A stretch of 64,000 nucleotides of DNA from Nocardioides aquaticus (GTDB taxonomy: Bacteria > Actinomycetota > Actinomycetes > Propionibacteriales > Nocardioidaceae): contig NZ_CP075371.1 in the NCBI RefSeq assembly GCF_018459925.1, positions 1,736,001 to 1,800,000 of the forward strand, read 5' to 3'. The notes beneath the pieces were generated by a model. The model made no database searches, was not told the DNA's origin, and saw nothing but the letters and a program-made list of their open reading frames with translations. A program made the position numbers and the translations under genes. Within the stretch, counting starts at the first letter, position 1, and each line of letters starts with the position of its first letter. Below are positions 39,220-64,000 of this stretch, one piece after another.

Positions 39220-39588
39220 ATGACCGACGAGAGCTGCGGGCTGCTGTGCCTGGACCTACCGGAGGCGGAGCGGGTCCGCTCTCTGGTCCCGTCCGCCGAG
39301 GTGGCCGGGGTCTCAGCGGCGCGCTTGCGCGCGCTGGCAGACCCGACCCGGTTGCGGGTGGCCATGGCGCTGGCCGCCTCCGGCGGTGAGCTGTGCGTCT
39401 GTGACCTTGCCTGGGTGGTGGGGGCGTCCTCCGGGCTCGTCTCCCACCACCTGCGGCTGTTGCGGTCCAGCGGCCTGGCGGCCTCGCGGCGTGACGGCAA
39501 GATGGTCATGTACGCCCTCACCGAACCGGGAGAGGCGCTGTTGCGCTCCGTCACGGGCTGCACTGTCGGGTCGCAGGTGACGTCATGA
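39220..39588 (+). CDS. ArsR/SmtB-family metalloregulator (CadC/CmtR-like)
   Basis: The protein has 122 residues. N-terminal cysteines (CGLLCLDL) precede a winged helix with RALADPTRLRVAMAL, the metal-site motif ELCVCDLAWVVG on helix alpha-3 and VSHHLRLLRSSGLA. The ELCVCDL motif with an extra N-terminal Cys pair is the classic alpha-3N site of CadC-like sensors of Cd, Pb or Zn. It overlaps the following P-type ATPase gene by 4 nt and should repress that operon without metal. Confidence 0.9.
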   Translation: MTDESCGLLCLDLPEAERVRSLVPSAEVAGVSAARLRALADPTRLRVAMALAASGGELCVCDLAWVVGASSGLVSHHLRLLRSSGLAASRRDGKMVMYALTEPGEALLRSVTGCTVGSQVTS

Positions 39589-41663
39589 GCGACGCCTGCT
39601 GCGGTGGTGACACACCCGAGGACGTGGGTCCGCGGGAGTCCATCGACCCGGTCCGGCTGCGCGACGTCCGCGAGCTCAGGATCGCCGGCGCTGCCGGCGT
39701 GCTGGTGCTCCTCGGGTTCCTTCTTCCTGTGCTCGGTGGTCCTCCGGCGACCGGCTCTGGGGTCGCAGCGCACCTCGCTGCGGCCGCGTTGGGTGGCGTG
39801 ACGTTCGTGCCAGGTGCGGTGCGCGGTCTGCGGCGGCGCCGGGTCGGCGTCGCCACCTTGATGACCATCGCGCTCATCGGTGCGCTGGTGCTCGGCCAGG
39901 TCGCCGAGGCGGCCATGCTGGCGTTCCTGTTCTCCATCAGCGAGGCCCTCGAGCACTACTCGGTGACCCGCACCAGGCGTGGACTGCGCTCCCTCCTGGC
40001 GCTGGTGCCGACGGAGGTCTCCGTCGAGCGCGGCGGCCTCACGGGACGCATCCCAGCCTCCGCGCTTGAGGTCGGGGATCTGATGGTGGTCATGGCCGGC
40101 GACCGGGTGGCCAGCGACGGCATGGTCCGCAGCGGCCGGTCCTCGCTGGACGTCTCGGCTATCACCGGTGAGTCGATGCCAGCAGAGGTCGGACCGGGCG
40201 ACGTCGTGCACGCCGGCTCGGTGAACGCCAACGGCGTACTCCGGGTCGAGGCCACCGCACGGGTCGAGGACAACTCGCTGGCCAAGGTGGTGGCCGTCGT
40301 CGAGGACGCTCAACGGCTCAAGGGTGACCGGCAGCGGATCGCGGACCGCATCGCGCGTCCGCTGGTGCCGGCGATCATGGTGGTGGCCGCCCTGATCGCG
40401 GGGATCGGTTCGCTCCTCGGGGACCCAACGCTGTGGGTGGAACGCGCGCTCGTGGTGCTGGTCGCCGCGGCGCCGTGCGCCTTGGCTCTCTCGGTGCCTG
40501 TCACCGTGGTCGCCGCCGTGGGCGCTGCGAGCCGGTTCGGCGTGCTGGTCAAGGGCGGCGCGGCGATCGAAGCGCTCGGCGCCGTCCGTACTGTCGCGCT
40601 GGACAAGACCGGGACGCTGACCGCCAACCGGCCCCGGGTGGTTGCTGTCGTAGCGGCCCAGGGCTGGACCGAGGACGAGGTCCTCGCAACGGCGGCGGCC
40701 CTGGAACGACACAGCGAGCACCCGCTGGCCGCGGCCGTGCTCACCGCCGCGGCAGAGGGAGCCGTCGCTCAACGGGACGCGACCGACATCGAGGCGGTGC
40801 CGGGCCACGGACTCCGAGGCGTGCTCGACGGCCGTCCGGCACGCCTCGGCAAGCCGACCTGGGTCCTGCCTGCGGCCCTGGCGGCCGAGGTGGACCAGCT
40901 GCAGGGATCAGGTGCGACCGTCGCAGTGGTCGAGGTCGACGGCGAGGTGGTCGGGGTGATCGCGGTGCGTGACGAGCTGCGCCGGGAGGCGGCCGAGGTG
41001 GTCGCCGATCTTCGCGCGCGCGGCATCGACGTGGTGATGCTGACTGGGGACCACGAGCGAACCGCGCGGGCCATCGCCGCGGAGCTTGGCATCACTCGAG
41101 TCCATGCCAACCTGGTCCCGACCGACAAGTCGGACCTGGTGGCTCGGTTTCGCAGTGAGTCGGGCCGACCGGTGGCCATGGTGGGTGACGGCGTGAACGA
41201 CGCCCCGGCACTCGCCGTGGCCGACGTGGGCATCGCGATGGGCGCGATGGGAGCAGACGTCGCCATCGAGGCCGCAGATGTCGCCCTGATGGGCTCGGAC
41301 CTGCGGCACCTCCCTCAGGCCATCGGCCACGCACGTCGAGCCAGGGGCATCATGCTGCAGAACATCGCGCTGTCACTGCTGATCGTGGTTGGCCTGGTCC
41401 CGCTGGCCGCGCTCGGCGTCCTTGGTCTGGCCGCCGTCGTGCTGATCCACGAGGTGGCCGAGGTGTTCGTCATCGCCAACGCCGTCCGGGCCGGGCGCCT
41501 CGCCGCCCTTGACGGCGTCGAGGCGCCGCGCGCGGCCGATCCCGGCCGGGACCTCGGCACGTTCCAGGTGGCGGAGGACGGCTGCGCATGCTGCGCGCCA
41601 TCGGCCGACGCATCGCTCGACGCATCGGTCCTGGGAATCGGTGGGTCGGCGCGGGGCGCCTGA
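39585..41663 (+). CDS. Heavy-metal P1B-type ATPase with APC motif
   Basis: The protein has 692 residues and resembles the ATPase at 33303-35273 throughout, so they are likely paralogues. It has a short Cys-rich start (DACCGG), actuator ITGESMPAE, transmembrane metal site APCAL near residue 296, DKTGTLT near 340, GDGVNDAP, and a C-terminal helix VLIHEVAEVFVIAN followed by a tail ending near CACCAPS that may bind metal. APC in place of CPC or SPC removes one sulfur or hydroxyl ligand, so the ion may differ from the paralogue's; Cd, Zn or Co are the likely options given its CadC-like regulator. Confidence 0.9.
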   Translation: MSDACCGGDTPEDVGPRESIDPVRLRDVRELRIAGAAGVLVLLGFLLPVLGGPPATGSGVAAHLAAAALGGVTFVPGAVRGLRRRRVGVATLMTIALIGALVLGQVAEAAMLAFLFSISEALEHYSVTRTRRGLRSLLALVPTEVSVERGGLTGRIPASALEVGDLMVVMAGDRVASDGMVRSGRSSLDVSAITGESMPAEVGPGDVVHAGSVNANGVLRVEATARVEDNSLAKVVAVVEDAQRLKGDRQRIADRIARPLVPAIMVVAALIAGIGSLLGDPTLWVERALVVLVAAAPCALALSVPVTVVAAVGAASRFGVLVKGGAAIEALGAVRTVALDKTGTLTANRPRVVAVVAAQGWTEDEVLATAAALERHSEHPLAAAVLTAAAEGAVAQRDATDIEAVPGHGLRGVLDGRPARLGKPTWVLPAALAAEVDQLQGSGATVAVVEVDGEVVGVIAVRDELRREAAEVVADLRARGIDVVMLTGDHERTARAIAAELGITRVHANLVPTDKSDLVARFRSESGRPVAMVGDGVNDAPALAVADVGIAMGAMGADVAIEAADVALMGSDLRHLPQAIGHARRARGIMLQNIALSLLIVVGLVPLAALGVLGLAAVVLIHEVAEVFVIANAVRAGRLAALDGVEAPRAADPGRDLGTFQVAEDGCACCAPSADASLDASVLGIGGSARGA

Positions 41664-44890: not shown

Positions 44891-45327
44891 GTGAGGACGT
44901 TGTGTGTTGCCACGCGCAGACCGAACCGGACCCTGCCCGCACTTCTCGCTGTGGCGGTCGGGGCGGTCGTGCTGGGCATCGTCGGGATGCATGCCTCTAC
45001 ACCCACGGCGTCACCAGCGGTACGAACCACGCCACCACGGCCGTCTTTTCGGTGATGAGCGCCGCGCAGCCGTCCACGACTGGGCTCGCCGTCGGCGAGG
45101 CCCATGAGGGAGAGCACCACGGCCTCAGCAGCATGGCGATGCTCTGCACCGTGATGCTGGCGGCAGCCGCTGGAGCAGCCCTGCTCCTGGTTGGAGCGCA
45201 CCGCGCACCGCGGATCTGGAGTCACGTGTCGACCATCGACCGCGCCACCGTGTGCCCGGGCAGCACCGTCGCCTGTCGAGGAACCGGCCTGCCACCGGCC
45301 TGGGAGTTCTCCGTCATCAGGTGCTGA
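44891..45327 (+). pseudogene. DUF6153 gene copy 1, frameshifted
   Basis: The start region (GTG at 44891 after GAGAGGAG) gives a short basic N-terminus and helix (LPALLAVAVGAVVLGIVGMHA), then the frame breaks near 44995. The remainder continues in another frame with LSSMAMLCTVMLAAAAGAAL and ends PPAWEFSVIRC, almost the same ending as the intact copy at 51492-51956 (PPVWEFSVIRC). Comparison of ATGCATGCCTCTACACCC with the intact ATGCACGCCCTGTCCACCC shows one base missing. It precedes a DUF305 copy, exactly as in the intact cassette. Confidence 0.82.
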
Positions 45328-45437
45328 GGGGGCATCGCGCTGCCCTGACCTCGGGCGCGCGACACGACGCCACCCGACCAACGCAACTCAGTCCACAGGA
45401 GAACCCCTTCGTACGTATCAATCGCACCACCCGCGCC

Positions 45438-46189
45438 ATGAGCGCGATCGCCCTCGGACTCACCCTCGCCTTGGCCGCCGCTGCCTGCGGCGATAGCGAT
45501 GACACCAGCAGTTCCGGTGCCGAGACCTCCACCACTGAGCACAACGACACCGACGTCGCCTTTGCCTCCGACATGCTCCAGCACCACACCCAGGCACTCG
45601 ACGTGGTCGACCTCACCCAGGGCCGCGACCTCGACCTCGAGGTTCAGCAGCTGGCCGACGACATCAGGGCCGCTCAGGCCCCCGAGATCGAGACCTTCAC
45701 CGGCTGGCTCACCGACTGGGACGAAGCCGTCCCTGCGACCAGCACGAGCGGGTCGATGCGCGACCGGGACATGCCCCGGATGGGCGGGTCGATGCGCGGC
45801 CGCGACGGGATGCGCCGCGACGCGATGCGCGGCGACGCGATGCGCGGCGACGCGATGCGGGGCGACGGGATGCGGGGCGACGCGATGCGCGGCGACGCGA
45901 TGCGGGGCGACGCGATGCGCGGCGACGCGATGCGATGCGGGGGATGATGTCCGGCGCTGACATGCCGGGGATGATGTCCGGCACCGAGATGACCGCCCTG
46001 GCTCAGGCGCCTGATGCTGAGTTCGAGGAGTGGCTGGAGATGATGATCGAGCACCATACCGGTGCAATCGACATGTCCGAGACCGAGACCGAGCAGGGTC
46101 AGTACAAGCCTGCGATCGACCTCGCTAACGAAAGCGCAGAGTCGCAGACCGCCGAGGTCGAGACGATGGAGAACCTTCTCGCCCCTTGA
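45438..46189 (+). pseudogene. DUF305 lipoprotein gene copy 1, expanded repeat and frameshift
   Basis: The first half matches the intact DUF305 gene at 52035-52634: lipobox LAAAACG, then DVAFASDMLQHHTQALDVVD and ETFTGWLTDWDE. The codon aligned with the intact start is GTA, so initiation must use the ATG at 45438. A 15-base repeat then adds MRGDA units, and a 5-base irregularity (ATGCGATGCG) shifts the frame; translation stops at 45947. The second half (MIEHHTGAIDMSETETEQGQ and the C-terminus) is intact in another frame to 46189. Either the gene is dead or length change of the repeat can switch it. Confidence 0.85.
45810..45934 (+). repeat. 15-base minisatellite inside DUF305 copy 1
   Basis: Eight 15-base units ATGCG(C/G)GGCGACG(C/G)G start at 45810 and repeat every 15 bases; the first has CC for GG. 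They encode MRRDA, then MRGDA or MRGDG. A truncated ATGCG unit at 45930-45934 precedes the return to unique sequence and causes the frameshift. An 18-base variant unit at 45792 comes before the array. Equal-length spacers are absent, so this is not CRISPR. Confidence 0.9.
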
Positions 46190-49076: not shown

Positions 49077-51449
49077 ATGTTCAGTCACCCGATCCACCGC
49101 GATGCGCACACACCAGTGACTACGAAGGACCCGGTGTGTGGCATGGACGTCGACCCCGCCACCAGCGGGCACACCGCCATGCACGACGGAGAGACGTTCT
49201 TCTTCTGCTCTGCGGGGTGCGCCGCGAAGTTCGAGGCTGACCCAAACCGCTACACCGCGCACGACCACTCCCCAGGAACCTCCGGGAGCGGCGGGCCGGT
49301 GCCGGTGGGGGAGGTTGCGGAGTACACGTGCCCGATGCACCCTGAGATCCGGCAGGACGGTCCCGGGTCGTGCCCCATCTGTGGGATGGCCCTGGAACCG
49401 GTCCTGGTGACTGCTGAGACGGGTCCGAACGCGGAGCTGGTCGACATGACCCGACGGTTCTGGGTCGCTGTCGCGCTGTCGATCCCGGTCGTCATCCTCA
49501 GCATGGGCCGCGACCTGGTCCCGGCCCTGCGCGACCTGATCGACGCCCAGGTCTCGGTGTGGGCGCAGCTGGTCCTGGCCACGCCGGTGGTGCTCTGGGC
49601 GGGGGCGCCGTTCTTCGTCCGGGGCTGGGCCTCGGTCCGCACCCGGAACCTGAACATGTTCACCCTCATCGCGATGGGCACCGGCGTCGCCTGGCTCTTC
49701 AGCATCGTCGCGACCCTCGCACCGGGGTTGTTCCCGGAGGCGTTCCGGATGGACGGGGTGGTCGCGGTCTACTTCGAGGCTGCTGCGGTGATCACCACCC
49801 TGGTCCTGCTGGGCCAGGTCCTCGAGCTCCGCGCCCGCGAGCAGACCTCGGGTGCGATCAAGGCACTGCTCGACCTCAGCCCGAAGACCGCCCGACGCCT
49901 CGGGGTGGACGGCACCGAGGAGGAGGTCGCCCTCGACGAGGTCCAGATCGGGGACCGGCTGCGGGTCCGCCCGGGCGAGAAGGTCCCCGTGGACGGTGCC
50001 GTTACCGAGGGCCGCTCGGCCGTGGATGAGTCCCTGGTGACGGGGGAGTCGATGCCGGTCACCAAGACCACCGGCGACCCGGTCATCGGGGGGACCATCA
50101 ACCAGAGCGGGGCCCTGGTGATGGTCGCCGAGAAGGTCGGCCGCGACACCATGCTGGCCCGGATCGTGGCGATGGTCGCCGACGCTCAACGTTCCCGCGC
50201 CCCGATCCAGCGGATGGCCGACCGGGTCGCCGCGGTGTTCGTGCCCGCCGTGATCGTGATCGCGCTGGTCGCCTTCGCGGTGTGGGCGCTGGTGGGCCCC
50301 GACCCGCGACTGGCGCACGCGCTCGTCGTCGCGGTCGCGGTCCTGATCATCGCCTGCCCCTGTGCCCTGGGGCTGGCGACGCCGGTCTCGATCATGGTCG
50401 GTGTCGGACGTGGCGCGCAGATGGGTGTGCTGATCAAGAACGCCGAGTCGTTGGAGCGGATGGAGAAGGTCGACACCCTCGTGGTCGACAAGACCGGCAC
50501 CCTGACCGAGGGCAAGCCCTCGGTCACCCACATCGGTCACGCCGACAACAGCCACCCGGGCGGCACAAGGTTCTCGGACGATGACCTCCTGCGGCTCTCT
50601 GCCGCCGTCGAACGCGTCTCGGAGCACCCGCTGGCCCAGGCCATCGTCAACGCAGCCCTCGACCGGGGCATCACCATCGGTGAGGCCACCGACTTCGACG
50701 CACCCGCTGGACGCGGAGTAGTCGGAACCGTGGAGGGACACACGGTGGCCTTGGGCAGCGCCGACTTCATGACCGCCCGCAACCTCGACCCGACGGGTCT
50801 CCTGGTGGAGGCGGACCGGCTCCGTGGCGATGGGGCGACGGTCGTCTTCGTCGGCATCGACTCCGTCGTGGCGGGCATCGTGGCGATCGCCGACCCCGTC
50901 AAGGCGACCAGCGCCGAAGCCGTCAGGGCACTGGGCGCGGAGGGCATCGAGGTCGTGATGCTCACCGGTGACAACCGGGTCACCGCCGAGGCTGTCGCCC
51001 GGTCCCTGGGCATCGACCGGGTCGAGGCCGAGGTCATGCCCGACCACAAGGCCGACGTCGTCCAGCGCCTGCGCAGCGAAGGCCGCGTGGTGGCGATGGC
51101 GGGCGACGGTGTGAACGACGCCCCCGCGCTTGCCGCGGCCGACGTCGGGCTCGCGATGGGCACCGGCACCGATGTGGCGATCGAGTCCGCCGGGGTGACG
51201 CTGCTCAACGGCGACCTGGGTGGCATCGTCCGAGCCCGCCAGCTCTCGGCGGCGACGATGTCGAACATCCGCCAGAACCTGGTCTTCGCGTTCGCCTACA
51301 ATGTGGCGGGGATCCCGATCGCCGCCGGAGTCCTTTACCCCGTGTTTGGGGTCCTGCTGTCGCCGATGATCGCCGCGGCCGCGATGGCCCTGTCTTCGGT
51401 GAGCGTGATCACCAACGCGTTGCGCCTTCGGACCCACCGCCTCGGCTGA
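49077..51449 (+). CDS. copA: Copper-exporting P1B ATPase with YHS and HMBD domains
   Basis: The protein has 790 residues. Domains in order: YHS domain ([14 protein letters not shown], residues 19-60, with [11 protein letters not shown]), a short linker, the heavy-metal-binding HMBD domain ([15 protein letters not shown] and [10 protein letters not shown], about 83-112), eight membrane helices, actuator [10 protein letters not shown], metal site [10 protein letters not shown] near 426, DKTGTLT near 471 and [11 protein letters not shown] is the Cu(I) signature of P1B-1 pumps. Unlike the other two metal ATPases in the window it is not beside an ArsR gene but under a CsoR-like palindrome. It is followed by the DUF6153-DUF305 cassette on the same strand. 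Confidence 0.95.
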
Positions 51450-52034: not shown

Positions 52035-52634
52035 ATGCCTAGCAACCGCACGACCCGCGCCATCAGCGCGACCGCACTCGGCCTCACCCTCGCCCTGACC
52101 GCCGCCGCCTGCGGCAACGACGCCGACGGTGGTGACACGAGTGCTCAGGTGTCCACCACCGAGCACAACGACGCCGACGTCGCGTTCGCCTCCGAGATGC
52201 TCCAGCACCACGCCCAGGCCCTCACGATGGTCGACCTCACCCAGGGCCGTGACCTGGACCCCGAGGTTCAGCAGCTGGCGGACGACATCAGGGCCGCCCA
52301 GGCCCCCGAGATCGAGACCTTCACGGGCTGGCTCACCGACTGGGACGAGACGGTCCCCGACACCGGTGATGCGATGGAAGGCATGGACGCGGCCGAGATG
52401 GACATGCCCGGCATGATGAGCGCCGCCGACATGACCGCACTCGAAGACGCCCCCGACGGCGACTTCCAGACGATGTGGCTAGAGATGATGATCGAGCACC
52501 ACAGCGGCGCGATCGACATGGCTGAAGCCGAGACCGAGCAGGGCCAGTACAAGCCCGCCATCGACCTCGCTGAGGAGATCGCAGAGTCGCAGGCCGGCGA
52601 GATCCAGACCATGGAGGACCTACTCGCCTCCTGA
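52035..52634 (+). CDS. DUF305 lipoprotein (intact copy)
   Basis: The protein has 199 residues. The ATG follows CAGGAGA. A lipoprotein signal ends LTAAACGN near residue 26. Two four-helix-type repeats carry the DUF305 hallmarks DVAFASEMLQHHAQALTMVD and MMIEHHSGAIDMAEAE, whose histidines and Met residues are in the ferritin-like arrangement. DUF305 proteins are exported and linked to copper or other metal binding. The gene ends the copA-DUF6153-DUF305 run and is followed by a strong terminator. A broken, repeat-expanded copy is at 45438-46189. Confidence 0.9.
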   Translation: MPSNRTTRAISATALGLTLALTAAACGNDADGGDTSAQVSTTEHNDADVAFASEMLQHHAQALTMVDLTQGRDLDPEVQQLADDIRAAQAPEIETFTGWLTDWDETVPDTGDAMEGMDAAEMDMPGMMSAADMTALEDAPDGDFQTMWLEMMIEHHSGAIDMAEAETEQGQYKPAIDLAEEIAESQAGEIQTMEDLLAS

Positions 52635-54027: not shown

Positions 54028-54345
54028 TTGACCCCTCAGAGGAACCAGTTGGGGCGGCAAGGTCATCTAGCAGAGTTCAGACGCAAGGTTCTCGATCTGC
54101 TCGAGCAGGGGCGCAGCGTCGCCTCGGTCGTGCACAATCTCGACTTGTCGGATCAGACGATCTACAACTGGCGCCGGCAAGACCGAATCGACCGGGGCCA
54201 GATGCCCGGACTGAACACCGCCGAGAAAGCTGACCTGGCGGAGGCGAACAACCGCATCACTGAACTCGAGACCGAGTCGAGGTCAGCCGTGGCGCGATCA
54301 GGGGTGCAAGGGGGTCATCAGCCCAAAAGCGTACGCGGCGATTGA
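54028..54345 (+). pseudogene. IS3 orfA remnant (HTH protein)
   Basis: The 105 codons read as IS3 OrfA: LAEFRRKVLDLLEQGRSVA, then LDLSDQTIYNWRRQDRID (the HTH) and a leucine-zipper-like segment ADLAEANNRITELETES. After that the sequence departs from the family and stops. The first codon lacks a ribosome site. It may still make a short DNA-binding protein but not with an active partner. Confidence 0.7.
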
Positions 54346-55199
54346 GGTGATCACCGCGGAGAGCATCCAGGTGCAGGTCGCGTGCAAGGTCCTTGGTGTC
54401 GCGGAATCGGGGTACTGCGAGCACAAGAATGGGCACCGTCGGAGCTGGCGGTGCGCCACGCGATGCTCACCGACCTAATCACTCAGATCCATGTCGAGTC
54501 CCACGGCCTCTACGGAGGTCGGCGGGTTCACGTCAAGCTCACCCTGGGCCGCGGCGTCCTCGTGGGCCACAACCAGGTCCAGCTGCTGAAGCGACGCGCC
54601 GGCCTGGCAGGGCCTCACGGGGGTGGAAGCGGAAACGGAGCCGCACCGATGACATCGCCACCGACCTAGTGGAGCGTAACTTCGACCGCACCGGCCCGAA
54701 CTACCTGTGGGTCACCTACACCACCGAGTTCCCCACCAGAGTGGGCAAGGTCTAATGCTGCGCAATCCTCGACACCTACTCACGTCGCGTCGTGGGCTGG
54801 TCTCTCGGCTCCGCCCAGATCGGCGCACTGGTGACTAATGCGTTGAGGATGGCCATCGAGACCCGGCTCGGCAGGTTCGCTGAGCCGGGCACGATCATAG
54901 AGTCAGACCACGGCGTGCAGGGCGGATCCCTGGCCTTCACGCAACGTGCCCGTGACTCCGGTCTGCTGGCGTCGATGGGCAGCATCGGTGACTGCCACGA
55001 CAGCTCGATGGTCGAGGCGTTCTGGTCGCGGATGCGGGTCGAGCTACTCAATCGCAAGCAGTGGAACACCTCCCTGGAGCTGACTAAAGCAATGTTCGAA
55101 TACCTCGAGATCTGGCAAAACCGCAAGCGCCGGCACGGCCTGCCCGGGTGGCTCACGCCGGTAGCATTCGAACGTAACCGCATCATCACCGTGGCGTGA
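54346..55199 (+). pseudogene. IS3 orfB remnant (DDE transposase)
   Basis: Fragments of a single transposase are spread over frames. An N-terminal part reads VRHAMLTDLITQIHVESHGL up to LLKRRAGLAG. A frameshift near 54615 leads to DDIATDLVERNFDRTGPNY and LWVTYTTEFPTRVGKV, where a TAA (54753-54755) interrupts the gene and the usual first catalytic Asp is replaced by Tyr. The C-terminal part has SDHGVQ and SSMVEAFWSRMRVELL with the second Asp and the Glu. The enzyme cannot be active. Confidence 0.82.
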
Positions 55200-55313: not shown

Positions 55314-56222
55314 TCACGACCCTTGGGGGCCAGCGAGTTTCGGGGGTGGGGCGGCGAAGGTCGTGTCGATGTGCTCGTCGAGCCCGCCGGCACGTCGCTT
55401 GCCACGACCTCCGGTGCCCGAGAGCACGAGGCAGAAGACGGCAGCGTCGACCAGCACGATCGTGGTCCCGCTGGGCACGTTGAGGTGGTAGCTGAGGTTC
55501 ATCCCGACGAAGCCACCGGACGCGCCCAGGACTGAGGACATCCAGAGCATCCGCCCGAAGGAGTCGGTAAGCATGCGGGCCGCGACCGCCGGGATGACCA
55601 GGGTGGCCGCGACCAAGGTCACACCGATGATGGTCAGGGTGGACAGGATGGCCAGGGACAGCACGAGCATCAGCAGCGCGTCGGTGCGCGCAACTCGGAC
55701 GCCGGAGACGTCGGCGACCTCGGGGTCGAAGGTCGAGAACAGCAGCGCGCGGTACCGTCCTAGAACCACGACCAGGGTCAGGACGGTGACGCCGGCCATC
55801 ACCCACAGGTCGGCTTCATCCACACCAATGATGCTGCCGAACAGTGCTGCGTCGAAGCTCGGGCCCTTGTTGCCGTACAGGGTCAGCAGCGCGATCCCTA
55901 ACGCGAACGAGGCGGTCGTGATGACTCCGATGGCGGCATCCGAGCCGATCCGTCGCGATCGCGAGACGCGGCTGATGGCCAGCGCCGAGGCCAGTCCCCA
56001 CACACCGGCCCCGAGGAAGTAGTTGAGACTGATGACGCTGCTGGCGGCGAATCCTCCGAACACCGCGTGGGAGAGTCCGTGGCCGATGTAGCTCATCCCG
56101 CGCAGGGTGATGAACACGCCCAGCAGGCCACACAGCAGTCCCGCCATCGTGGCGGCCAGGACGCCCTTGACGAAGAACTCGTAGGCGAACGGTTCGAGGA
56201 TCGTGTCCCATACGGCATGCAT
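55314..56222 (-). CDS. Metal ABC transporter permease (ZnuB/MntB-type)
   Basis: The protein has 302 residues from the ATG at 56222, seven bases after the ATPase stop. Eight or so membrane helices carry the family motifs GLLCGLLGVFITLRGMSYI, GHGLSHAVFGG and IGVTLVAATLVIPAVAARM. This is the permease class of Mn/Zn/Fe-chelate ABC importers. The C-terminal tail is Lys/Arg-rich. It is the last gene of the three-gene operon (binding protein, ATPase, permease). Substrate Zn versus Mn cannot be decided from the permease. Confidence 0.9.
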   Translation of the reverse strand: MHAVWDTILEPFAYEFFVKGVLAATMAGLLCGLLGVFITLRGMSYIGHGLSHAVFGGFAASSVISLNYFLGAGVWGLASALAISRVSRSRRIGSDAAIGVITTASFALGIALLTLYGNKGPSFDAALFGSIIGVDEADLWVMAGVTVLTLVVVLGRYRALLFSTFDPEVADVSGVRVARTDALLMLVLSLAILSTLTIIGVTLVAATLVIPAVAARMLTDSFGRMLWMSSVLGASGGFVGMNLSYHLNVPSGTTIVLVDAAVFCLVLSGTGGRGKRRAGGLDEHIDTTFAAPPPKLAGPQGS

Positions 56223-56229
56223 GCCGAGT

Positions 56230-57006
56230 TCACGCCGTCCTGCTGTCGCGGTAGCCCTCGACGACGATCGGCATCCCGGCATGTTGGAGGACTTCCATGT
56301 CCGCGCCGAAGGTGGCCTCGAGCACGTCGGGCCTGATGACCTCGGCCGGGGTGCCCTCCGCGATCACCCGGGTACGCAAGGCGACGAGGTGGGGAAGGTG
56401 GGCGGCTATGCCGTTGAGGTCGTGGGTGGTCAGCACGATGGAGAGCCCATCGTCGTTGAGCTCCCCCAGCAGGTGCAGGACCTCGTGCCGGGTTTTGACG
56501 TCGACGCCCGACGTGGGTTCGTCGAGCAGGATCAGCTCCGGGCGCCGTAGCAGCGCTCGTGCGAGGAACATGCGCTGCTGCTGCCCGCCGGACAGCTCGC
56601 GGATGTGGCGACCGGCGAGGTCGGCGATCCCGAGCCGGTCGAGCGTGTCGTGGACCTCGCGTCGTTCCGAGCCTGACGCCCAGGGCCACCGCAGGCCCTG
56701 CGGGCGGCTCATCAGTACGCACTCAGCGACGGTGACCGGGAAGTTCCAGTTGACCGTCTCCAGCTGCGGCACGTAGGCCATCGTGAGATCACGCCTGGTG
56801 CTGACCTGGCCCCGCTGGGGCTGGACCTTGCCGAGCAGGAGCCTCAGCAGGCTGGTCTTGCCGGATCCGGAGGGCCCCACCACGCCGGTGAAGGTGCCGG
56901 CCGCCACGCTCAGGGTCACCCCGTCCAGGACAGGCCTGCGGTCGTAGCCGAAGCCGACGCCCTGCAGCCCGATCAAGGGCTGGGCCGGAACCCGGGGGGC
57001 GGTCAC
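56230..57006 (-). CDS. Metal ABC transporter ATPase (ZnuC/MntA-type)
   Basis: The protein has 258 residues. Walker A GPSGSGKTSLL near residue 44, Q-loop YVPQLETVNWNFP, signature LSGGQQQRMFLARAL near 138, Walker B LILLDEPTSG and the switch histidine in LTTHDL are all present, as expected for an active ATPase of the Mn/Zn importer class. The start overlaps the stop of the binding-protein gene by 4 nt. It should power import by the adjacent permease. Confidence 0.93.
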   Translation of the reverse strand: MTAPRVPAQPLIGLQGVGFGYDRRPVLDGVTLSVAAGTFTGVVGPSGSGKTSLLRLLLGKVQPQRGQVSTRRDLTMAYVPQLETVNWNFPVTVAECVLMSRPQGLRWPWASGSERREVHDTLDRLGIADLAGRHIRELSGGQQQRMFLARALLRRPELILLDEPTSGVDVKTRHEVLHLLGELNDDGLSIVLTTHDLNGIAAHLPHLVALRTRVIAEGTPAEVIRPDVLEATFGADMEVLQHAGMPIVVEGYRDSRTA

Positions 57007-58007
57007 TGGGGGTACTCAGCGCTGTCGGGTGCCACGTCGTCGACGTCGAGGGCATCGAGGGTCGGCGCGTGGCCGCCCAGTCCGGTGATCATCGTGACGT
57101 AGTCGTAGCGCATCAGACCCAGCCAGGAGTGCTCGGTATCACCCGGTTCGCCGGGGAGGTCGTCGTCGCGCAGCGTGTCCTCGTATCGCACACCGGTCTC
57201 ATCAGCGATCTGCTCCAACGCCTTCGACGGGAAGACCTCCGACCCGAAGATGGTCGGGACGTCCTCGGCACGGATCTGGTCGATCAGGTCCGCTACCTCC
57301 TGCGGGGCAGGGTCCTCAAAGTTCTCGGGCTGGATGGCGCCGATGACCGTCCAGTCGTAGGTGTCTGCGAAGTAGGCGTAGGCGTCGTGGTACGTCAACA
57401 AGGCGCGAGGGCCCGGGATGCTCTCCTGGTCCTTGCGCAGGGCCTCGCCCAGCGCGGTGGCCTTCGCCTCGAACGCGTCGAAGTTCGACTCGTAGTAGTC
57501 AACGTTGTCGGGGTCCCGCTCGACGAAGGTGTCCCGGATGACCTCGGCGTACTTGAGCGCCCACGTGGGATCCGTCCACAGGTGGGGGTTCGGCTTGCCG
57601 TCCTCTTCTGGGAAAGAGAAGTCGTAGATGTAGTCCGACTCGGGCAGCACCGCAGTGCCGATCTCGATGAGCTCCGAGCCATCCTTCGCGGTCTGCTCAG
57701 CCAGGCCCTTCATGGGCTCCTCCAGCTGGAGCCCGTTGATGAAGACGACGTCTGCCTCAGACAGCACGACGCTCGCCGACGGTGGAGGCTCGAAGGTGTG
57801 ACTGTTGGTCCCCTCCGGCACCAGGCCCGTGATGGAGACCTTGTCGCCACCGATGTTGGCCGCGATCGAGGTGATCGGCGCTACCGTCGTCACGACCGCC
57901 AATACGTTGCCGCCCGAGCTGCTGCGCGAGTCGGTCCCTCCGCAGGCAGCAAGACCGAAGGCGGTTAAGACCAGCGCGACTGGACCAGTTGCTCGGCTCG
58001 AACGCAT
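57003..58007 (-). CDS. Metal-binding lipoprotein of ABC importer (ZnuA/MntC-type)
   Basis: The protein has 334 residues. A lipoprotein signal ends GLAACGGT near residue 22. Cluster A-I features: VVTTVAPITSIAANIGG, the first His ligand in GTNSHTFEPPPS near 70, the second in PNPHLWTDP near 142, a third in LLTYHDAYAYFAD near 205 and an acidic ligand near 280. The His-rich loop typical of ZnuA is absent, so Mn or Zn are both possible. First gene of the operon; a strong symmetric element lies 14 bases upstream of its start. Confidence 0.9.
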   Translation of the reverse strand: MRSSRATGPVALVLTAFGLAACGGTDSRSSSGGNVLAVVTTVAPITSIAANIGGDKVSITGLVPEGTNSHTFEPPPSASVVLSEADVVFINGLQLEEPMKGLAEQTAKDGSELIEIGTAVLPESDYIYDFSFPEEDGKPNPHLWTDPTWALKYAEVIRDTFVERDPDNVDYYESNFDAFEAKATALGEALRKDQESIPGPRALLTYHDAYAYFADTYDWTVIGAIQPENFEDPAPQEVADLIDQIRAEDVPTIFGSEVFPSKALEQIADETGVRYEDTLRDDDLPGEPGDTEHSWLGLMRYDYVTMITGLGGHAPTLDALDVDDVAPDSAEYPQ

Positions 58008-58391: not shown

Positions 58392-58763
58392 TCAGAAGTC
58401 GGGGTGACGGACCTGGGAGAGCTCGGCGAGCTGGAGCAGGCAGTGCTGGCGTAGGGGTTCGGGGAAACCTTGGGCGAGGCGGTAGAAGACCATGCGTCCG
58501 TCCTTGCGTCGGGTGACGAGCCCGGCCGTTCTGAGCATTCGCAGCCCGTAGCCGACGGCGTCCTCGGAAGCGTGGAGCGCGAGGGCCAGGTCTCCGACAC
58601 AGAGCTCCTCGGCTGCGTCGAGTGCGAACAGCAGGCGCATGCGGGTGGGGTCGGCGATGAGGGTGAGCACGCTGGTGACTCGTCCAGCGTCGGCCGGCGC
58701 CGGTACCCGGTCCCGGGCGCGGCTGACCGCCGTCGGGTCGACGGGATGTGCGTGATCTGCCAT
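58392..58763 (-). CDS. ArsR/SmtB-family regulator
   Basis: The protein has 123 residues. I chose the ATG at 58763, seven bases after GGAG; one two codons upstream is too close to that site. The winged helix has VLTLIADPTRMRLLFAL, the alpha-3 motif ELCVGDLALAL and VGYGLRMLRTAGLVTR with a DGRMVFY wing. The single Cys in ELCVGD and the N-terminal DHAHPVD histidines could form a Zn or Ni site, unlike the double-Cys CadC-type site of the gene at 39220. It may control the ABC operon through the dyad at 58021, or the nearby ZIP remnant. Confidence 0.88.
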   Translation of the reverse strand: MADHAHPVDPTAVSRARDRVPAPADAGRVTSVLTLIADPTRMRLLFALDAAEELCVGDLALALHASEDAVGYGLRMLRTAGLVTRRKDGRMVFYRLAQGFPEPLRQHCLLQLAELSQVRHPDF

Positions 58764-58865
58764 GGTCATCTCCAGAAAAGCCCGCACGACGGCACGGGTG
58801 TCGGGTATGTAGCGTAGGGCCTGGCCGGTGCTCAGCCAACGTCGAGAGCGAAGGAGAGGTCGTCG

Positions 58866-59207
58866 ATGGCTTCACTGATGTTGCTCCTGGTCGCCGCGAT
58901 CGGCACCGTTTTGGCCCTCCGGGTGCTGGTTCGCTGGACGGCGGTGTCGGCGATTCCTTTCGAGGTGGAGCCGTGGCTCTCGGGTCATCGGCCGACCGAG
59001 CATGCTCTGTCGCGCTATCACGCGCGCTGGTACAGCGCCAGCGTGGTCTTTCTCGCTTTCGACGTCGAGATGCTGTTCATGTATCCCTGGGCGATCGTCG
59101 TGGGACATCTCGGGGCTGGTGCCGTGGTGGAGATGTTCGGATTCTTGCTGATGCTGTTGTTAGCCGTCGCGTGGGCCCGGCGCGAGGGAGCGTTCCGGTG
59201 GGCCTGA
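58866..59207 (+). CDS. nuoA: NuoA-like complex I membrane subunit
   Basis: The protein has 113 residues. Three membrane helices and the conserved loop/helix RYHARWYSASVVFLAFDVEM followed by LFMYPWAIVVG carry the Asp and Glu that line the quinone/proton channel region in NuoA. The ATG follows GGAGAGGTCGTCG. It opens a cluster of complex-I-like membrane genes that continues past the window edge, and it overlaps the next gene by 10 nt. Confidence 0.9.
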   Translation: MASLMLLLVAAIGTVLALRVLVRWTAVSAIPFEVEPWLSGHRPTEHALSRYHARWYSASVVFLAFDVEMLFMYPWAIVVGHLGAGAVVEMFGFLLMLLLAVAWARREGAFRWA

Positions 59208-60289
59208 TCGAGGTGTTGACCAGGGCCGCAGCCGCGCGCGCTCACGTCCTCGTCGCGGAAGTTCCGGGTGCCTTTGAGGAGCGGGTCGCGCTCGAGCGTG
59301 CACTCGAGCGCATGGGCTGGTGCATCGCGGAGTCCGCCGCGGACGCTGACGTCCTGGCGGTGGTCGGTGCGCCCGACGAGGCCTTGACCGCCGTGGCCGA
59401 CCACGTGTGGGCGCAGATGTCGGAGCCACGGGTGCGGGTCCATTTACATGCCGACTCCGAGGCGGCGGCTCTCCTCAACGAGGCCCGCGAGCGGCTCCGC
59501 CTTGGGGCGCGGCGCCTCACCGGCCCTGACGTTCGCCGTGGCTTCACCCCTTCCGCGGACGCCATGGCGCCGGAGCACGACGACCAGGACGGTGCCGCCG
59601 AGCACGGCGATCACCACGATCACGACGGCGGTCACGACCACTCCGCGATGATGCCGGACGGGATCCCGCTGGCCGAGGGGGCCGAGGATCGCGACGGCCT
59701 GGAGATGGATGAGCTCCACCTGCCGCTGGGACCGGTGCTCGCGCACTGGCCCGCCGGTATCGTCCTCCGGGTCACCTTGCATGGTGACGTGGTGGTCGGT
59801 GCCGAGGTCGAGCAGCTCGCAACGTCGCGCGCCGGCCAGCCGGACGACCCGGTCGTGCGGGCGGCGCGGCTGCTCGACGCTGCGGGTTCGGTGCTCGCAC
59901 TCGCCGGCCTGCCGGCAGAGTCCGCGCGAGTACGACGACTGCGCGACCGCTGCCTCGACGGTGAGCTGCACGACGGTCACGAGGTCGCGCAGCTCGGCGA
60001 TCGCCTAGGTCGACGGCGGGTCTTGCGTTGGATCCTCAGTGGACTCATCGCCGAAGGAAGTCACGGCGGGTCCGAGGAACTGCACGACCGACTGACGGCG
60101 CTTTTCGAGCAGGCGCGGGCCGAGCTGGACGGCGATGCGGTACGACCCGTGGCACCGGTCGTCCGGGCGCTTCCTGCGCTCGTGCGGGGGATGGAGCTGG
60201 CCGAGGTCAGATTATGGGTGGCCGCTCTTGGACCGGATCTGGCGCCTGGCCTGGCCGATCATGTGATGCCGGAGGCGGCCCATGGCTGA
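59198..60289 (+). CDS. Cofactor-less NuoB/NuoD-like fusion with His-rich linker
   Basis: The protein has 363 residues and a GTG start inside the end of nuoA. Residues 1-110 resemble NuoB in my reading (ALERMGWCIAESAADADVLA, then VVGAPDEALTAVADHVWAQM and SEPRV), but the four iron-sulfur cysteines are missing; only one Cys remains. Residues 125-155 are a His/Asp linker (EHDDQDGAAEHGDHHDHDGG). Residues 170-250 resemble the start of NuoD (LPLGPVLAHWPAGIVLRVTL, HGDVVVGAEVE), without quinone-site residues I can recognise. It sits where nuoB to nuoG normally are, and overlaps nuoH by 8 nt. Function is unknown. Confidence 0.75.
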   Translation: MGLIEVLTRAAAARAHVLVAEVPGAFEERVALERALERMGWCIAESAADADVLAVVGAPDEALTAVADHVWAQMSEPRVRVHLHADSEAAALLNEARERLRLGARRLTGPDVRRGFTPSADAMAPEHDDQDGAAEHGDHHDHDGGHDHSAMMPDGIPLAEGAEDRDGLEMDELHLPLGPVLAHWPAGIVLRVTLHGDVVVGAEVEQLATSRAGQPDDPVVRAARLLDAAGSVLALAGLPAESARVRRLRDRCLDGELHDGHEVAQLGDRLGRRRVLRWILSGLIAEGSHGGSEELHDRLTALFEQARAELDGDAVRPVAPVVRALPALVRGMELAEVRLWVAALGPDLAPGLADHVMPEAAHG

Positions 60290-61220
60290 CTCCTTGTCCT
60301 TGGTCTACGTGGTGCCGGTGCTGGTGGGTCTCGCGGTGGTGTCACTGTCAGTGGCCGGGCTCTCCTCCGCTCTCGAGGCCCGCGACCGAGGCTTGTCCGT
60401 TGGGTCGGGTCTCACGGTGCCGTTGCGCGAGACGGCCCGGCTGATGCGTCAACGCCCACGCCGTACGGTCTCGGCCGACAGGTTGCTGTGGCGCTCCGCG
60501 TCCTCGGCGGTCATCCCGCTGGCGGTCCTGATCGTGGCGTTCGTGCCGCTGGGCGCGCATGCGCTAGTTGACCACCCCCTGGGGCTGGTGTGGATCAACG
60601 CTCTCGACGTGGTGGCTTGGGCGGTGATGTGGCTGCTCGGCTGGGGGGCGAACTCGGTGACCGGCCTGGTGGGCGGCTACCGCTTCCTGGCCCTCGCCCT
60701 GGGCTATGAGCTCCCACTGATGTTCGCGCTGACCGCCCCGGCGATCGCCGCCGGAAGCCTGGACCTGGCCGAGATCTCGGCAGCCCAGGACGGGTTGTGG
60801 TTTGTGGTGTGGGCACCGGTTGCCTTCGCGGCGTATTGCTGGGGAGTGCTGGGCTTCTCGGTCCGGCCTCCCATGGACCCCGGCGCCGGCATCGACGTCA
60901 ACGGTGGGATCCTCGCCGAGCTGGCCGGGGTGGACCGGCTGCTGGTGCTCGCGGGCCGCTACGCCCTGCTGGTAGCCGGCTCGGCGGCGGCGGTGCCGCT
61001 GTTCCTCGGCGGCGGAGCCGGCCCGCTGCTCCCCGGCTGGGGGTGGGTGCTGATCAAGACCATCCTCGTGAGCGGGTTGCTCGTGCTGGCAGGTCGCCGG
61101 CTGCCGACACTGCGCCCCGACAAGCTCCTCGAGATCGGCTGGGTGGTCGTGCTGCCGCTCGTGGTCGCCCAGGACCTGGTCGTCTCCGTCATCGCTGTTG
61201 CCACCACCCAACCCGGCTGA
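60282..61220 (+). CDS. nuoH: NuoH-like complex I membrane subunit
   Basis: The protein has 312 residues and eight membrane helices. GWGANSVTGLVGGYRFLALA and LGYELPLMFAL are the NuoH region that contacts quinone; in canonical NuoH this reads with GGLRAAAQ and SYE. The acidic loop after helix five is partly kept (SVRPPMDPGAGIDVNGGIL). It is divergent compared with the respiratory complex, as expected if the peripheral arm is different. Its start lies within the upstream fusion gene, so both are co-translated. Confidence 0.85.
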   Translation: MADSLSLVYVVPVLVGLAVVSLSVAGLSSALEARDRGLSVGSGLTVPLRETARLMRQRPRRTVSADRLLWRSASSAVIPLAVLIVAFVPLGAHALVDHPLGLVWINALDVVAWAVMWLLGWGANSVTGLVGGYRFLALALGYELPLMFALTAPAIAAGSLDLAEISAAQDGLWFVVWAPVAFAAYCWGVLGFSVRPPMDPGAGIDVNGGILAELAGVDRLLVLAGRYALLVAGSAAAVPLFLGGGAGPLLPGWGWVLIKTILVSGLLVLAGRRLPTLRPDKLLEIGWVVVLPLVVAQDLVVSVIAVATTQPG

Positions 61221-61252
61221 GTCCGTTCGAGTCCGTACAGAGAGGAGATCCG

Positions 61253-61825
61253 ATGAACACCGTCCTCGTCGACGTGGGGTTCTGGTTGTGCGCCGTTGTG
61301 TCCGTGGTGGCGGGTGCGCTGGTGTTCTACGTCGACTCCATGGCCCGGGCGACCTATGCGTTGGCGGTCTCCTTCGTCGCGGTCGGGGTGACGCTGCTGC
61401 TGATGGGGCAGGCCTACATGGGCGTGATCGTGATCTTGATGATGGTCATGGAGATGGCCGTGATGGTGGTCTACATGGTGATGTTCATGGGGATGAACCC
61501 CGCCCTGATGCCGATGAGCATGGTCCACTCGCACCGCTCGTCGATCACCGCCGGCGTGGGGACCTTCCTGCTCCTGGGCGCCGGCGCGGTGCTCGCGCCT
61601 TGGCCCACCCGCCGTGGCGCACCCACTAGCGACGTCACGGCCGCGTTGGGGGAGGCGATTATGGAGTCCCACATGATCGTGATGATCGCGATGGGCCCCG
61701 TCATGGTCGCCACGATCGTCGCCGGTGTCGTCCTCTCCTCCCACCGCACCCGCTACGACCGTCTCGGCGACGACCTGGACCGCCGACCCGCCGACGACCC
61801 GCAGCCGGGGGGTGTGGGCCGGTGA
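61253..61825 (+). CDS. nuoJ: NuoJ-like complex I membrane subunit
   Basis: The protein has 190 residues. The ATG at 61253 is preceded by AGAGGAGA. Five helices: FWLCAVVSVVAGALVFYV, TYALAVSFVAVGVTLLLMG, AYMGVIVILMMVMEMAVMVV (the pi-bulge helix of NuoJ), then two more. The third helix is unusually Met-rich (VMFMGMNPALMPMSMVHSH). No nuoI lies between nuoH and nuoJ, unlike standard operons. It overlaps nuoK by 4 nt. Confidence 0.87.
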   Translation: MNTVLVDVGFWLCAVVSVVAGALVFYVDSMARATYALAVSFVAVGVTLLLMGQAYMGVIVILMMVMEMAVMVVYMVMFMGMNPALMPMSMVHSHRSSITAGVGTFLLLGAGAVLAPWPTRRGAPTSDVTAALGEAIMESHMIVMIAMGPVMVATIVAGVVLSSHRTRYDRLGDDLDRRPADDPQPGGVGR

Positions 61826-62124
61826 CGGTGGAGACAGTGCTGCTGGTCGCCTCGGCGCTGGTCGCTGTCGGGGTGTACGGCGTGCTGTCCCAGCAGGTGG
61901 TCGTGATGGTCGTGATGGGCTTGGAGCTGATGATCAACGGCGTCATCCTGGCCGCCGGCGGGCTGTGGTGGTTCCTGGCACCCGATCCGTCCGGGCAGGT
62001 GCTGCTGCTGGTGGTGATCGCGGCGATGACCGTGGAGATGGCGATGGGCTTTGCCGTCGCCACGCTGCTGCACCGCCAGGCCGGGCACGACATGACCGAC
62101 ATGGCCGCGGAGTTGCACGGCTGA
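61822..62124 (+). CDS. nuoK: NuoK-like complex I membrane subunit
   Basis: The protein has 100 residues, the usual NuoK length, and a GTG start coupled to nuoJ. Three helices are present. The two buried glutamates essential for proton transfer are kept: one in VVMGLELMINGVIL and one in IAAMTVEMAMGFAV. This suggests a functional proton path. Its stop shares one base with the next ATG. Confidence 0.9.
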   Translation: MTVETVLLVASALVAVGVYGVLSQQVVVMVVMGLELMINGVILAAGGLWWFLAPDPSGQVLLLVVIAAMTVEMAMGFAVATLLHRQAGHDMTDMAAELHG

Positions 62125-63995
62125 TGAGCGACCTGACGCTTGTCGCCCTCGTGGTGCTACCGGCCGTGGTGGGTGTGCTGCTCCTGCTGATCGGATCGGG
62201 TGCGGACCGATCGGCTGCGCCGGTCGGCGTCGGCACCGCGGCTCTGCTGGCGGCGGCGTCGTTCGCGGTCTCCTTCCCCGCGATCTCGCGACCCTCGGTG
62301 GCGACGCCGTTCATGGCGGGCGCGGATCTGGGTCTGGGCGTGGATGGCCTGGCTGCGCTGGTGCTGCCGGCGGTGGCGGTGGTGTCGGCGCTCGTGCTGC
62401 TGGCGGCCAGCGGTACCCCCGCGCTGCGAACGGCGCGGTTCTACGGGCTGATGCTGCTCTTCGTGGCCGCCGCATTGATGACGGTGCTGGCCACCACCCT
62501 GCCTACGCTGTTGATGTCGTGGGAGGTGATGGGCGCGACGTCGTTCGCTCTCGTCGGGTACCACTGGCGCGACCAGGAGACGATCAGCTCGGGCACGACG
62601 GCGTTCCTGACCACTCGGACCGCAGACGTCGGCCTGTACGTGGCAGCGGGTGCCGCGTTGGCCGGGGGAGCCGGTCTCGGACTCGCTGCCCTTCCGAACG
62701 CCTCCGGTGGTTGGCGTGACGTCATCGCGGCCGGGCTGGTGGTGGCCGGGCTCGGGAAGGCTGCCCAGCTGCCGTTCTCGTTCTGGCTCTCGCGCGCCAT
62801 GCTCGGCCCCAGCCCGGTCAGTGCGCTCTTGCACTCGGCCGCGATGGTCGCGATGGGTGGCTACCTGCTGCTGCGGGTGGCCCCCACCCTGGGGGCGACC
62901 GGTTGGGCCGACGACGCTGCGGCCTGGGCGGGGGCTGCGACTGCGGTGCTGCTGGGCATGGTTGCGCTCGCGCAGCGTGACCTCAAGCAGCTCCTGGCCG
63001 CGTCCACGGCAGCTCAGCTCGGCTTCGTCGTGCTGGCCGCCGGGGTGGGGGCGACCGCGGGCGGCGCCACCCATCTGGTGGCTCACGCGGCGGTCAAGGC
63101 GGGGCTGTTCCTTGCTGCCGGGATTTGGCTGGAGGCGCTGGGCACCAAACGACTGTCCTCTCTGACCGGGGCGGCCAGGCTCTGGCCCGTGGTCGGTGCG
63201 TGCGCTGCGGCTGCTCTGCTCTCGCTGGCGGGGCTGCCCCCGCTGGCGCTGTGGGCGACGAAGGACGCCGTGCTGGCAGCTGCCGCTGAGCAGTCGCCAA
63301 CCTTGTACGTGGCCGGGCTGGTCGGTGCGGCGCTCTCGGCGGCCTACGCGACCAAGGCCCTGGTCGTGCTGACCCGCGGCCTCCCCGACGACGCGGAGTC
63401 GCGGTATGACGATGAACGCGACGGCACCCGAGCCGTGCCGGGGCCCGCGTGGGTCCCGCTCCTCCCGCTGGCGGCAGAGGCCCTCCTTTTGGGCGTGCTC
63501 GCGCTCCCGCCGGTGTTCACAGACGTGCGGGAACTGGCGGGTGGCGCCTCGCAGGAGCCCAGCACGCTCGAGCTGGTGACGTCCGCGATGCTCGCCGTCG
63601 TGGTCATCGTCGCGACGGTGGCGGTGATGCGTGGTGTCCAGGGCCGACGGTTCGCCTGGCCCCGCGTGCTCAGGGACTGGCTGTTACTCGAACCGCTGGC
63701 GCACCGCAGCGTGGTCCGGCCGGTGGAGGTGCTGGCGCACCGGCTGGCGCACCTTGATGACGCAGTGCTGGACCGTGGCGTGGAGGCGACCGCGGGCGGC
63801 ACGGTGCGACTGGCCCGAACCGTAGCGCTCCTCGACGACCGTCTTATCGACGGTGCAGTGGCGGGGATCGTCTCCGGGGTGAGACGCGTGGGCGGCCTGG
63901 CCCGGAGACCGCAGACCGGGCAGCTGCACCAGTACTACCTCCAAGCGCTTGCCGTTTTGGCCCTTGTCCTCGTCGTCCTCGTTCTCGTGAGGTGA
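62124..63995 (+). CDS. nuoL: NuoL-like antiporter-type complex I subunit
   Basis: The protein has 623 residues and about sixteen helices. Proton-path residues are kept: Glu in LLMSWEVMGATSFALVGY, Lys in GLGKAAQLPFSFWL, His in LLHSAAMVAMGGYLLL and Lys in HLVAHAAVKAGLFLAAG. A C-terminal lateral helix and final membrane helix (YLQALAVLALVLVVLVLV) distinguish NuoL from NuoM/N. It is complete; an ATG follows its stop directly at 63996, so another gene (probably nuoM) continues past the window. Confidence 0.92.
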   Translation: MSDLTLVALVVLPAVVGVLLLLIGSGADRSAAPVGVGTAALLAAASFAVSFPAISRPSVATPFMAGADLGLGVDGLAALVLPAVAVVSALVLLAASGTPALRTARFYGLMLLFVAAALMTVLATTLPTLLMSWEVMGATSFALVGYHWRDQETISSGTTAFLTTRTADVGLYVAAGAALAGGAGLGLAALPNASGGWRDVIAAGLVVAGLGKAAQLPFSFWLSRAMLGPSPVSALLHSAAMVAMGGYLLLRVAPTLGATGWADDAAAWAGAATAVLLGMVALAQRDLKQLLAASTAAQLGFVVLAAGVGATAGGATHLVAHAAVKAGLFLAAGIWLEALGTKRLSSLTGAARLWPVVGACAAAALLSLAGLPPLALWATKDAVLAAAAEQSPTLYVAGLVGAALSAAYATKALVVLTRGLPDDAESRYDDERDGTRAVPGPAWVPLLPLAAEALLLGVLALPPVFTDVRELAGGASQEPSTLELVTSAMLAVVVIVATVAVMRGVQGRRFAWPRVLRDWLLLEPLAHRSVVRPVEVLAHRLAHLDDAVLDRGVEATAGGTVRLARTVALLDDRLIDGAVAGIVSGVRRVGGLARRPQTGQLHQYYLQALAVLALVLVVLVLVR

Positions 63996-64000
63996 ATGTG

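Follow-up and report, generated by a model that had tools for sequence, protein, structure and literature searches.

The last genes in a 64,000-nucleotide stretch of the Nocardioides aquaticus genome (the window; positions 1736001–1800000 of 4.58 Mb) belong to a complex I-like cluster of eight genes, in the order nuoA-BD-H-J-K-L-M-N, which continues into the bases beyond position 64000. We consider it an even chance that this cluster encodes an eight-subunit derivative of complex I or membrane-bound hydrogenase that carries out no electron transfer and transports a soft metal ion, with Cu(I) the likeliest, across the membrane. The complex retains no known electron path or quinone site, its NuoJ subunit has gained a line of methionines found in every relative compared, and copper-linked genes lie near many of the related clusters.

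The six frames named at 58866–63995 by the original prediction are all open, and five of them have Pfam matches: nuoA (58866–59207; PF00507, E = 1.5e-20), nuoH (60282–61220; PF00146, E = 1.4e-39), nuoJ (61253–61825, 190 residues; PF00499, E = 2.9e-08), nuoK (61822–62124; PF00420, E = 2.8e-12), and nuoL (62124–63995; PF00361, E = 1.4e-44), all on the plus strand. On the same strand, the frame at 59198–60289 encodes a 363-residue fusion protein, here called BD, composed of a NuoB-like part, a linker, and a NuoD-like part. The gene nuoM starts on the plus strand within the last bases of the window (63992–64000) and runs on past it (genome 1799992–1801485), and nuoN follows directly (genome 1801495–1802889). 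Immediately downstream of nuoL there are thus nuoM and nuoN, and not nuoB, C, D, or I. Neither the cluster nor the frames after it, read as far as genome position 1810000, showed a gene for NuoC, E, F, G, or I, and over the same range no redox subunit-like frame was seen by eye after nuoN. An NADH or other electron-input module was not found in the window cluster, in the following bases, or among the annotated genes of six related plasmid clusters, nor did the operons read (the window and the six plasmid clusters) contain a ferredoxin-like subunit of the NuoI or EchF type. The predicted lack of an NADH module, NuoC, and NuoI therefore holds past base 64000 as well.

A separate, ordinary nuo operon, with frames A to N, was found in the same genome at approximately 4201957–4217911 (4.20–4.22 Mb), its genes being assigned by eye except for NuoA, NuoD, and NuoJ. 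Because the genome holds this operon, the cluster is not a substitute for a broken one, and that explanation was ruled out. A NuoA outside the copper-linked cluster was present in 21 of the 21 genomes searched, and an ordinary NuoD match in 19 of them, the exceptions being two genomes (G264 and G317) that are 64% and 87% complete.

The cluster has relatives in several lineages. BD matches at E <= 1e-6 were obtained in 28 of 396 Actinomycetota genomes, including N. aquaticus itself, and four more (G065, G354, G379, and G387) matched both ends of the profile for the BD type that carries a heavy-metal-binding domain (HMBD), so that at least 32 of the 396 carry BD; hits near E 1e-22 that cover the NuoD half alone were left uncounted, being regarded as NuoD or hydrogenase proteins of other kinds. 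Two protein searches scored only 8000 candidates each, and a scan of named genome contigs returned a single relative, the Nocardioidaceae contig L004. Among plasmids, 234 records matched; of the 40 listed, 12 (H1–H12) were judged to be real BD matches and six of these were read, while the other listed matches were ATPases, hydrogenases, one NuoC, and one unannotated record. The comparisons below use 28 family rows: the window, L004, 20 of the 27 other matching genomes (G041, G076, G087, G109, G119, G253, and G290 fall outside the set), and the six plasmid records. These rows are related to one another, as eight genomes and one plasmid are from Rubrobacteraceae (family f18), and the pairs L056/L059 and L055/L060 are near-copies.

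All seven nuo genes were matched in 25 of the 28 loci, with nuoN partial in L004, and the remaining three are cut by contig ends, BD being present at each locus; the six plasmid clusters read all keep the order A-BD-H-J-K-L-M-N. A tree of NuoJ and NuoK with the methionine columns removed, made by a quick method with no bootstrap, split the 28 family rows from 22 ordinary copies of the same genomes with a value of 100 in the Shimodaira–Hasegawa-like approximate likelihood ratio test (SH-aLRT), and placed the window with L004, then with L036 (genome G361), and then with L035 (G062) and L037 (G171). Judged by these sequences, the cluster belongs to one clade, comprising Actinomycetota and proteobacterial plasmids. 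One Rubrobacteraceae genome (G195) has two copper-linked clusters, one on contig C1 (~3850186–3852000) and one on contig C2 (~72240–74336); the second contig is small and fits plasmid NZ_CP045120.1, and the plasmid locus L058 is probably this second copy. Of the six plasmid copies read, three (L056, L059, and L060) have ISKra4-family transposases next to them, and the operon may travel with these elements. One of the six plasmids, from Paracoccus, was typed as conjugative.

In the fusion protein BD, which is degenerate, a NuoB fold is followed by a NuoD fold. No family was matched in Pfam and NCBIfam scans of the window BD, and its layout comprises a NuoB-like part (residues 1–113), a disordered linker rich in His and Asp (~117–163), and a NuoD-like part (169–355), with a model that fits HycE as well as NuoD. 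The original prediction had seen no peripheral arm in the cluster, which is correct for NuoC, E, F, G, and I; because the fusion is a NuoB-NuoD remnant, however, the arm is partly retained in an altered form. The only cysteines of the window BD, C42 and C252, are not adjacent, no Cys is invariant in the BD alignment (A1), and the four NuoB cysteines that hold the iron-sulfur cluster N2 are absent. The aligned NuoB stretch presumably falls between the stretches containing the N2 ligands. In the NuoD-like half another sequence stands in place of the HPSTHG-type stretch: the HMBD-type profile has GPlfPGLPgG where a solved NuoD-type chain reads GPHHPSMHG, and the window BD has GPVLAHWPAG; the quinone histidine is gone. 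We take these NuoD residues, and the RIGPN residues of NuoH, to serve quinone. Over 39 sequences, 37 columns of BD are invariant.

In Rubrobacteraceae BD is longer, and the heavy-metal-binding domain PF19335 scored over its cut-off in four of the five proteins scanned, between the NuoB-like and NuoD-like parts. The family PF00346 was over its cut-off in seven of the 10 BD proteins scanned, including all five from Rubrobacteraceae, and both domains are also listed for proteins from Thiogranum longum and other Proteobacteria. The NuoD-like half of the HMBD type has its best sequence fit to MbhL (6cfw_L, E 6.3e-27), and the HMBD-type profile also matches the copper-ATPase chains 8ovl and 3rfu, at the metal-binding domain. 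NiFe cysteine motifs are absent from the large-subunit part of BD, and in the alignment of the HMBD type (A3) the only invariant cysteines, C153, C167, and C170, all lie within the CPMHP..CPxCGM domain. In the window lineage, where no Pfam match to this domain was found in the window BD, its place is taken by the His/Asp-rich linker, of variable length and His/Asp/Met-rich in most members. Because it marks only part of the clade, the domain was not used to define it.

Conserved residues have also been lost from the membrane subunits; for these, as for the other NuoH, A, K, L, M, and N residues scored here, we assume the roles familiar from the complex I literature. The rows of NuoH, NuoL, NuoM, and NuoN were compared with a single ordinary copy, that of the N. 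aquaticus genome. In the ARMQHRIGPN stretch of NuoH the scored R, H, R, and P are kept in none of the 28 rows (the preceding ERK is a gap in the alignment, and row L052 is misread at its N terminus). The first Glu of PEAE is likewise kept in 0/28, most of the acidic loop being gone from the window nuoH, and the Glu of FLGEY is kept in 0/28 and is Arg in 27/28. In the canonical YECG loop of NuoA, Y and E are each kept in one row of 28. The quinone reductase activity that had been proposed as a test is therefore not supported in that form, as the complex has lost the ligands of N2, the histidine of NuoD, and the tunnel motif of NuoH. Proton-path residues of NuoL and NuoM are kept: the transmembrane helix (TM) 5 Glu, TM7 Lys, and TM12 Lys of NuoL are kept in 27/27, NuoM Lys225 and Lys256 in 26/26, and NuoM Glu398 in 25/26 (numbering of the ordinary NuoM of the same genome), the TM5 Glu of NuoM being Asp, by eye, in the window cluster. 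Glu35 of NuoK is invariant (28/28), and Glu72 is Asp in three relatives.

Methionines have been gained along the same membrane arm. NuoJ, which aligns over its full length with solved NuoJ chains (6hum_G, E 0.00014), carries M65, M66, E69, M70, M73, M77, M81, M83, M90, M92, and H94 in TM3 and the loop that follows it (61439–61528, plus strand; numbering starts at an Asp two codons before the start Met, and the protein number is lower by 2). Each of these residues, and also M32, is present in 28/28 family rows and in none of the ordinary copies, a set of 23 from the same genomes in which 18 to 23 rows have a residue at a given column, and M143 is present in 28/28 family rows against 2/22 ordinary ones. 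At the position of M66, Tyr stands in 23 of 23 ordinary copies. On an ideal helix M66, M70, M73, M77, and M81 fall in a sector of 80 degrees. The TM3 signature was found in 120 of 120 database homologs of the window NuoJ, the best-scoring 120 of 1501. NuoA has gained Met69 and Met72 beside the conserved Glu68 (28/28 family versus 0/27 ordinary), and NuoK has gained M29 (28/28 versus 2/25), M69 (28/28 versus 0/25), and M73 (26/28 versus 0/25), all three near Glu35 and Glu72.

The neighborhood of the relatives points to copper. Three markers, located in 21 genomes, were used: DUF305, the copper ATPase TIGR01511 (matches above cut-off only), and the CsoR-type family PF02583, with five second fragments of the same genes removed from the DUF305 list. 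Of the 22 family loci, 14 have a copper-linked gene within 10 kb, where 0.98 would be expected from gene density, against none of 28 ordinary NuoA loci of the same genomes (1.09 expected). The association is strongest in Rubrobacteraceae (9/9 loci), and in the window's own class it is present for the N. aquaticus genome (G000), G062, and G361 and absent for G171. Four of the six plasmid neighborhoods read, from incomplete gene tables, have annotated copper-type genes near the cluster: a CusA/CzcA-type resistance-nodulation-division (RND) pump, CopB, a multicopper oxidase, and a cupredoxin in Sulfitobacter; CopD and a multicopper oxidase in Nitratireductor; DUF305, a heavy-metal P-ATPase, a metal-sensitive regulator, and a copper-binding protein directly upstream in Rubrobacter tropicus; and a multicopper oxidase, CopB, and a plastocyanin/azurin-type protein in Roseovarius. 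The guess of a metal homeostasis device is supported, and it can be narrowed towards copper by the relatives and the methionine signature. Beside the cluster of genome G162 there are pieces of a copper-type P-ATPase (L046 11014–12639; G162:C4:396332–397148) that score below the family cut-off. Three Rubrobacteraceae loci (L048 11231–11602, L049 14976–15383, and L051 15078–15497) have, by eye, a small ferredoxin-like protein encoded close to the cluster.

A fuller proposal, to which we give somewhat less than an even chance, is that complex I gave rise, in a single conversion, to a metal transporter coupled to protons, in which quinone chemistry was replaced by metal capture and a central helix of NuoJ is the membrane path for Cu(I). 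In the even-chance reading given at the outset, the cytoplasmic BD cap would occupy the place of the quinone module of complex I, and its metal-binding insert, either the HMBD or the His/Asp/Met-rich stretch, would capture cytoplasmic Cu(I). By its charge distribution (positive-inside rule), TM3 of NuoJ probably runs from the outside to the cytoplasm, which would place M90, M92, and H94 on the BD side of the membrane. The ion would be passed to these loop residues and then along the one-faced ladder M81, M77, M73, M70, and M66, which would lie near the NuoA and NuoK acidic residues bearing the new methionines. Energy would come from proton flow through NuoL and NuoM. An outward direction is suggested because the neighbors are export genes, which is the sole basis for it.

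Several observations weigh against this interpretation. Although NuoL, NuoM, and NuoK bear out the claim that proton-path residues are kept, NuoN does not, nor do the quinone-site residues of NuoH: the TM5 Glu of NuoN is kept in 0 of 24 family members (its TM7 Lys is Glu in 5/24), and because of this loss proton coupling may be altered. TM3 of NuoJ is no known transmembrane ion path. The metal insert is not universal, as the linkers of P0054 and P0085 are almost without His, and in five loci (L038, L039, L043, L045, and L046) a short stretch of Met and Gly is present instead of the metal domain or the His-rich linker. Outside Rubrobacteraceae a copper-linked gene lies within 10 kb of only five of 13 loci, four loci of family f39 have an ArsR regulator instead, and the Paracoccus and Thioclava plasmid stretches read contain no annotated copper gene. 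The CsoR family model, one of the three markers, also covers regulators of other metals. In the window itself the nearest metal genes encode a zinc/manganese-type ATP-binding cassette (ABC) importer, and the copper ATPase ends ~7 kb away.

Among other explanations, the oxidation of Cu(I) or reduction of Cu(II) at the BD cap could drive proton pumping, which we regard as unlikely. For a similar cassette in Marinobacter atlanticus its authors suggested that energy is drawn from copper redox or that redox cofactors are replenished (Eddie et al. 2021; PMC8233155), and the ferredoxin-like neighbor in the three Rubrobacteraceae loci could supply electrons, which would favor a redox role over metal transport. 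However, because the quinone site and the iron-sulfur relay of known type are gone, such a process is missing its electron acceptor, and it leaves the methionine ladder unexplained. It is also improbable that the complex is a pH or monovalent-cation/proton device in which the BD cap senses copper or another metal and gates proton flow through NuoL and NuoM, the metal itself not being moved. The retained proton-path residues of these two subunits and the CsoR- or ArsR-type regulators near many loci agree with gating, but a sensor needs no invariant line of methionines along a membrane helix.

Rather improbable, too, is the transport of another ion or in another direction, such as export of Ag(I), Cd(II), or Zn(II), or import of copper for cuproenzymes. 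It draws on the surroundings of the window cluster, which adjoins both the zinc/manganese-type importer (ZnuABC-like; 55314–58007) and an ArsR/SmtB-type metal-responsive regulator encoded divergently from nuoA (58392–58787, minus strand; NCBIfam HTH_metalloreg NF033788, 69.2 bits, cut-off 55), within reach of two cadmium/zinc-type P-ATPases (33303–35273 and 39585–41663) and a cation diffusion facilitator (CDF) transporter (30325–31275). The importer, however, is not beside the cluster in L004, the closest relative seen, where a CDF-like gene stands instead (by eye), and for this reason zinc was dropped as the preferred ion; the methionines and the links to copper genes favor a soft monovalent one. 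The L004 contig is short (10 kb), and more distant copper genes there are neither excluded nor shown. That the cluster is a relic of complex I in decay, or serves assembly only, as the shortened BD without a Pfam family match might suggest, is hardly credible given that all window frames are open, 37 columns of BD are invariant, the same eight-gene order extends from Actinomycetota to Proteobacteria, and the signature residues are present in 120/120 homologs. A pseudogene or chance resemblance was ruled out by the conservation of BD columns and the NuoJ signature (28/28 and 120/120).

The metal-handling region of the window spans 30325–58007. Apart from the genes already named, it includes an ArsR regulator accompanying the cadmium/zinc ATPases (39220–39588), a copper P-ATPase (49077–51449), and DUF305/CopM-like genes at 52035–52634 and ~45252–45947, the first of which scored 87.7 bits against CopM NF049983, just below the cut-off of 90. 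Transposase-like fragments, seen by eye at 54028–55199, separate the copper genes from the metal importer, and they suggest that the metal island was assembled by insertion. An ArsR of one shared kind (DH.HP or EH.HP plus ELCVGDL) stands beside nuoA in the window and in L004, L039, L040, L041, and L043. Between this regulator and nuoA, a block of 33 bases (58788–58820) is identical, by eye, in the window and L004, a possible operator or promoter region; no palindrome was found in the intergenic region by the criteria of the script used.

It has long been asked how complex I transfers redox energy from its quinone site to proton channels far away. In this natural relative the proton-channel subunits and the central axis are kept but the redox head is replaced, and it could be used to sort the quinone-dependent parts of the mechanism from the others. 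If metal transport is confirmed, the coupling apparatus of complex I can be driven by, or drive, a non-redox process, and the cluster represents a class of metal pump undescribed in the papers found; if copper is what is moved, it is an overlooked copper system present on chromosomes and plasmids. The family is hidden by misleading annotations, such as NADH-quinone oxidoreductase and heavy metal-binding domain protein.

In the literature searched, which mostly leaves subscription papers uncovered, so that others may exist, the only description of such a cluster is that of the M. atlanticus nuoADHJKL cassette, which lies in a copper-resistance region and is co-expressed with it (Eddie et al. 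2021; PMC8233155). The accessible text of that paper does not mention the metal domain, the methionine ladder, or the wider family. Of two further papers, as far as their accessible parts go, one is a survey of complex I variants and of copies on plasmids that never mentions copper (PMC12361115), and the other concerns nuo genes, nuoI included (PMC12668529). The searches made turned up no publication on the distribution of the cluster, the NuoB-NuoD cap, the loss of the quinone site, the methionine ladder, or the actinobacterial branch.

Compared with known systems, the complex shares with respiratory complex I (NDH-1) the homologs of NuoA, H, J, K, L, M, and N and the NuoB and NuoD folds, but it is without subunits C, E, F, G, and I, the N2 ligands, the quinone histidine, and the NuoH tunnel motif, and it has the new methionines. 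It resembles membrane-bound NiFe hydrogenase and formate hydrogenlyase in that the NuoD-like half of BD fits MbhL best in the HMBD type and, in the window model, HycE as well as NuoD; unlike group 4 NiFe hydrogenases, it is without the NiFe cysteines, and it has no ferredoxin-like subunit in the operon, a difference from both these hydrogenases and the Ehr complexes. The Mrp antiporters differ in that the present cluster has NuoH and the NuoB-NuoD fusion. The Marinobacter cassette, compared by its description only and from the accessible part of the paper, is described without nuoMN, unlike the window cluster; like the family, it combines complex I membrane genes with a protein annotated as NiFe-hydrogenase III large subunit amid copper-resistance genes (PMC8233155). 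Finally, CusA is a proton-driven copper exporter in which a ladder of methionines forms the Cu(I) path, according to the accessible text of a paper that contains no mention of NuoJ, NADH-quinone, or complex I-like (PMC7558416). The line of methionines is what the two have in common; CusA belongs to an unrelated protein family, and the ladder described here lies in a subunit of complex I.

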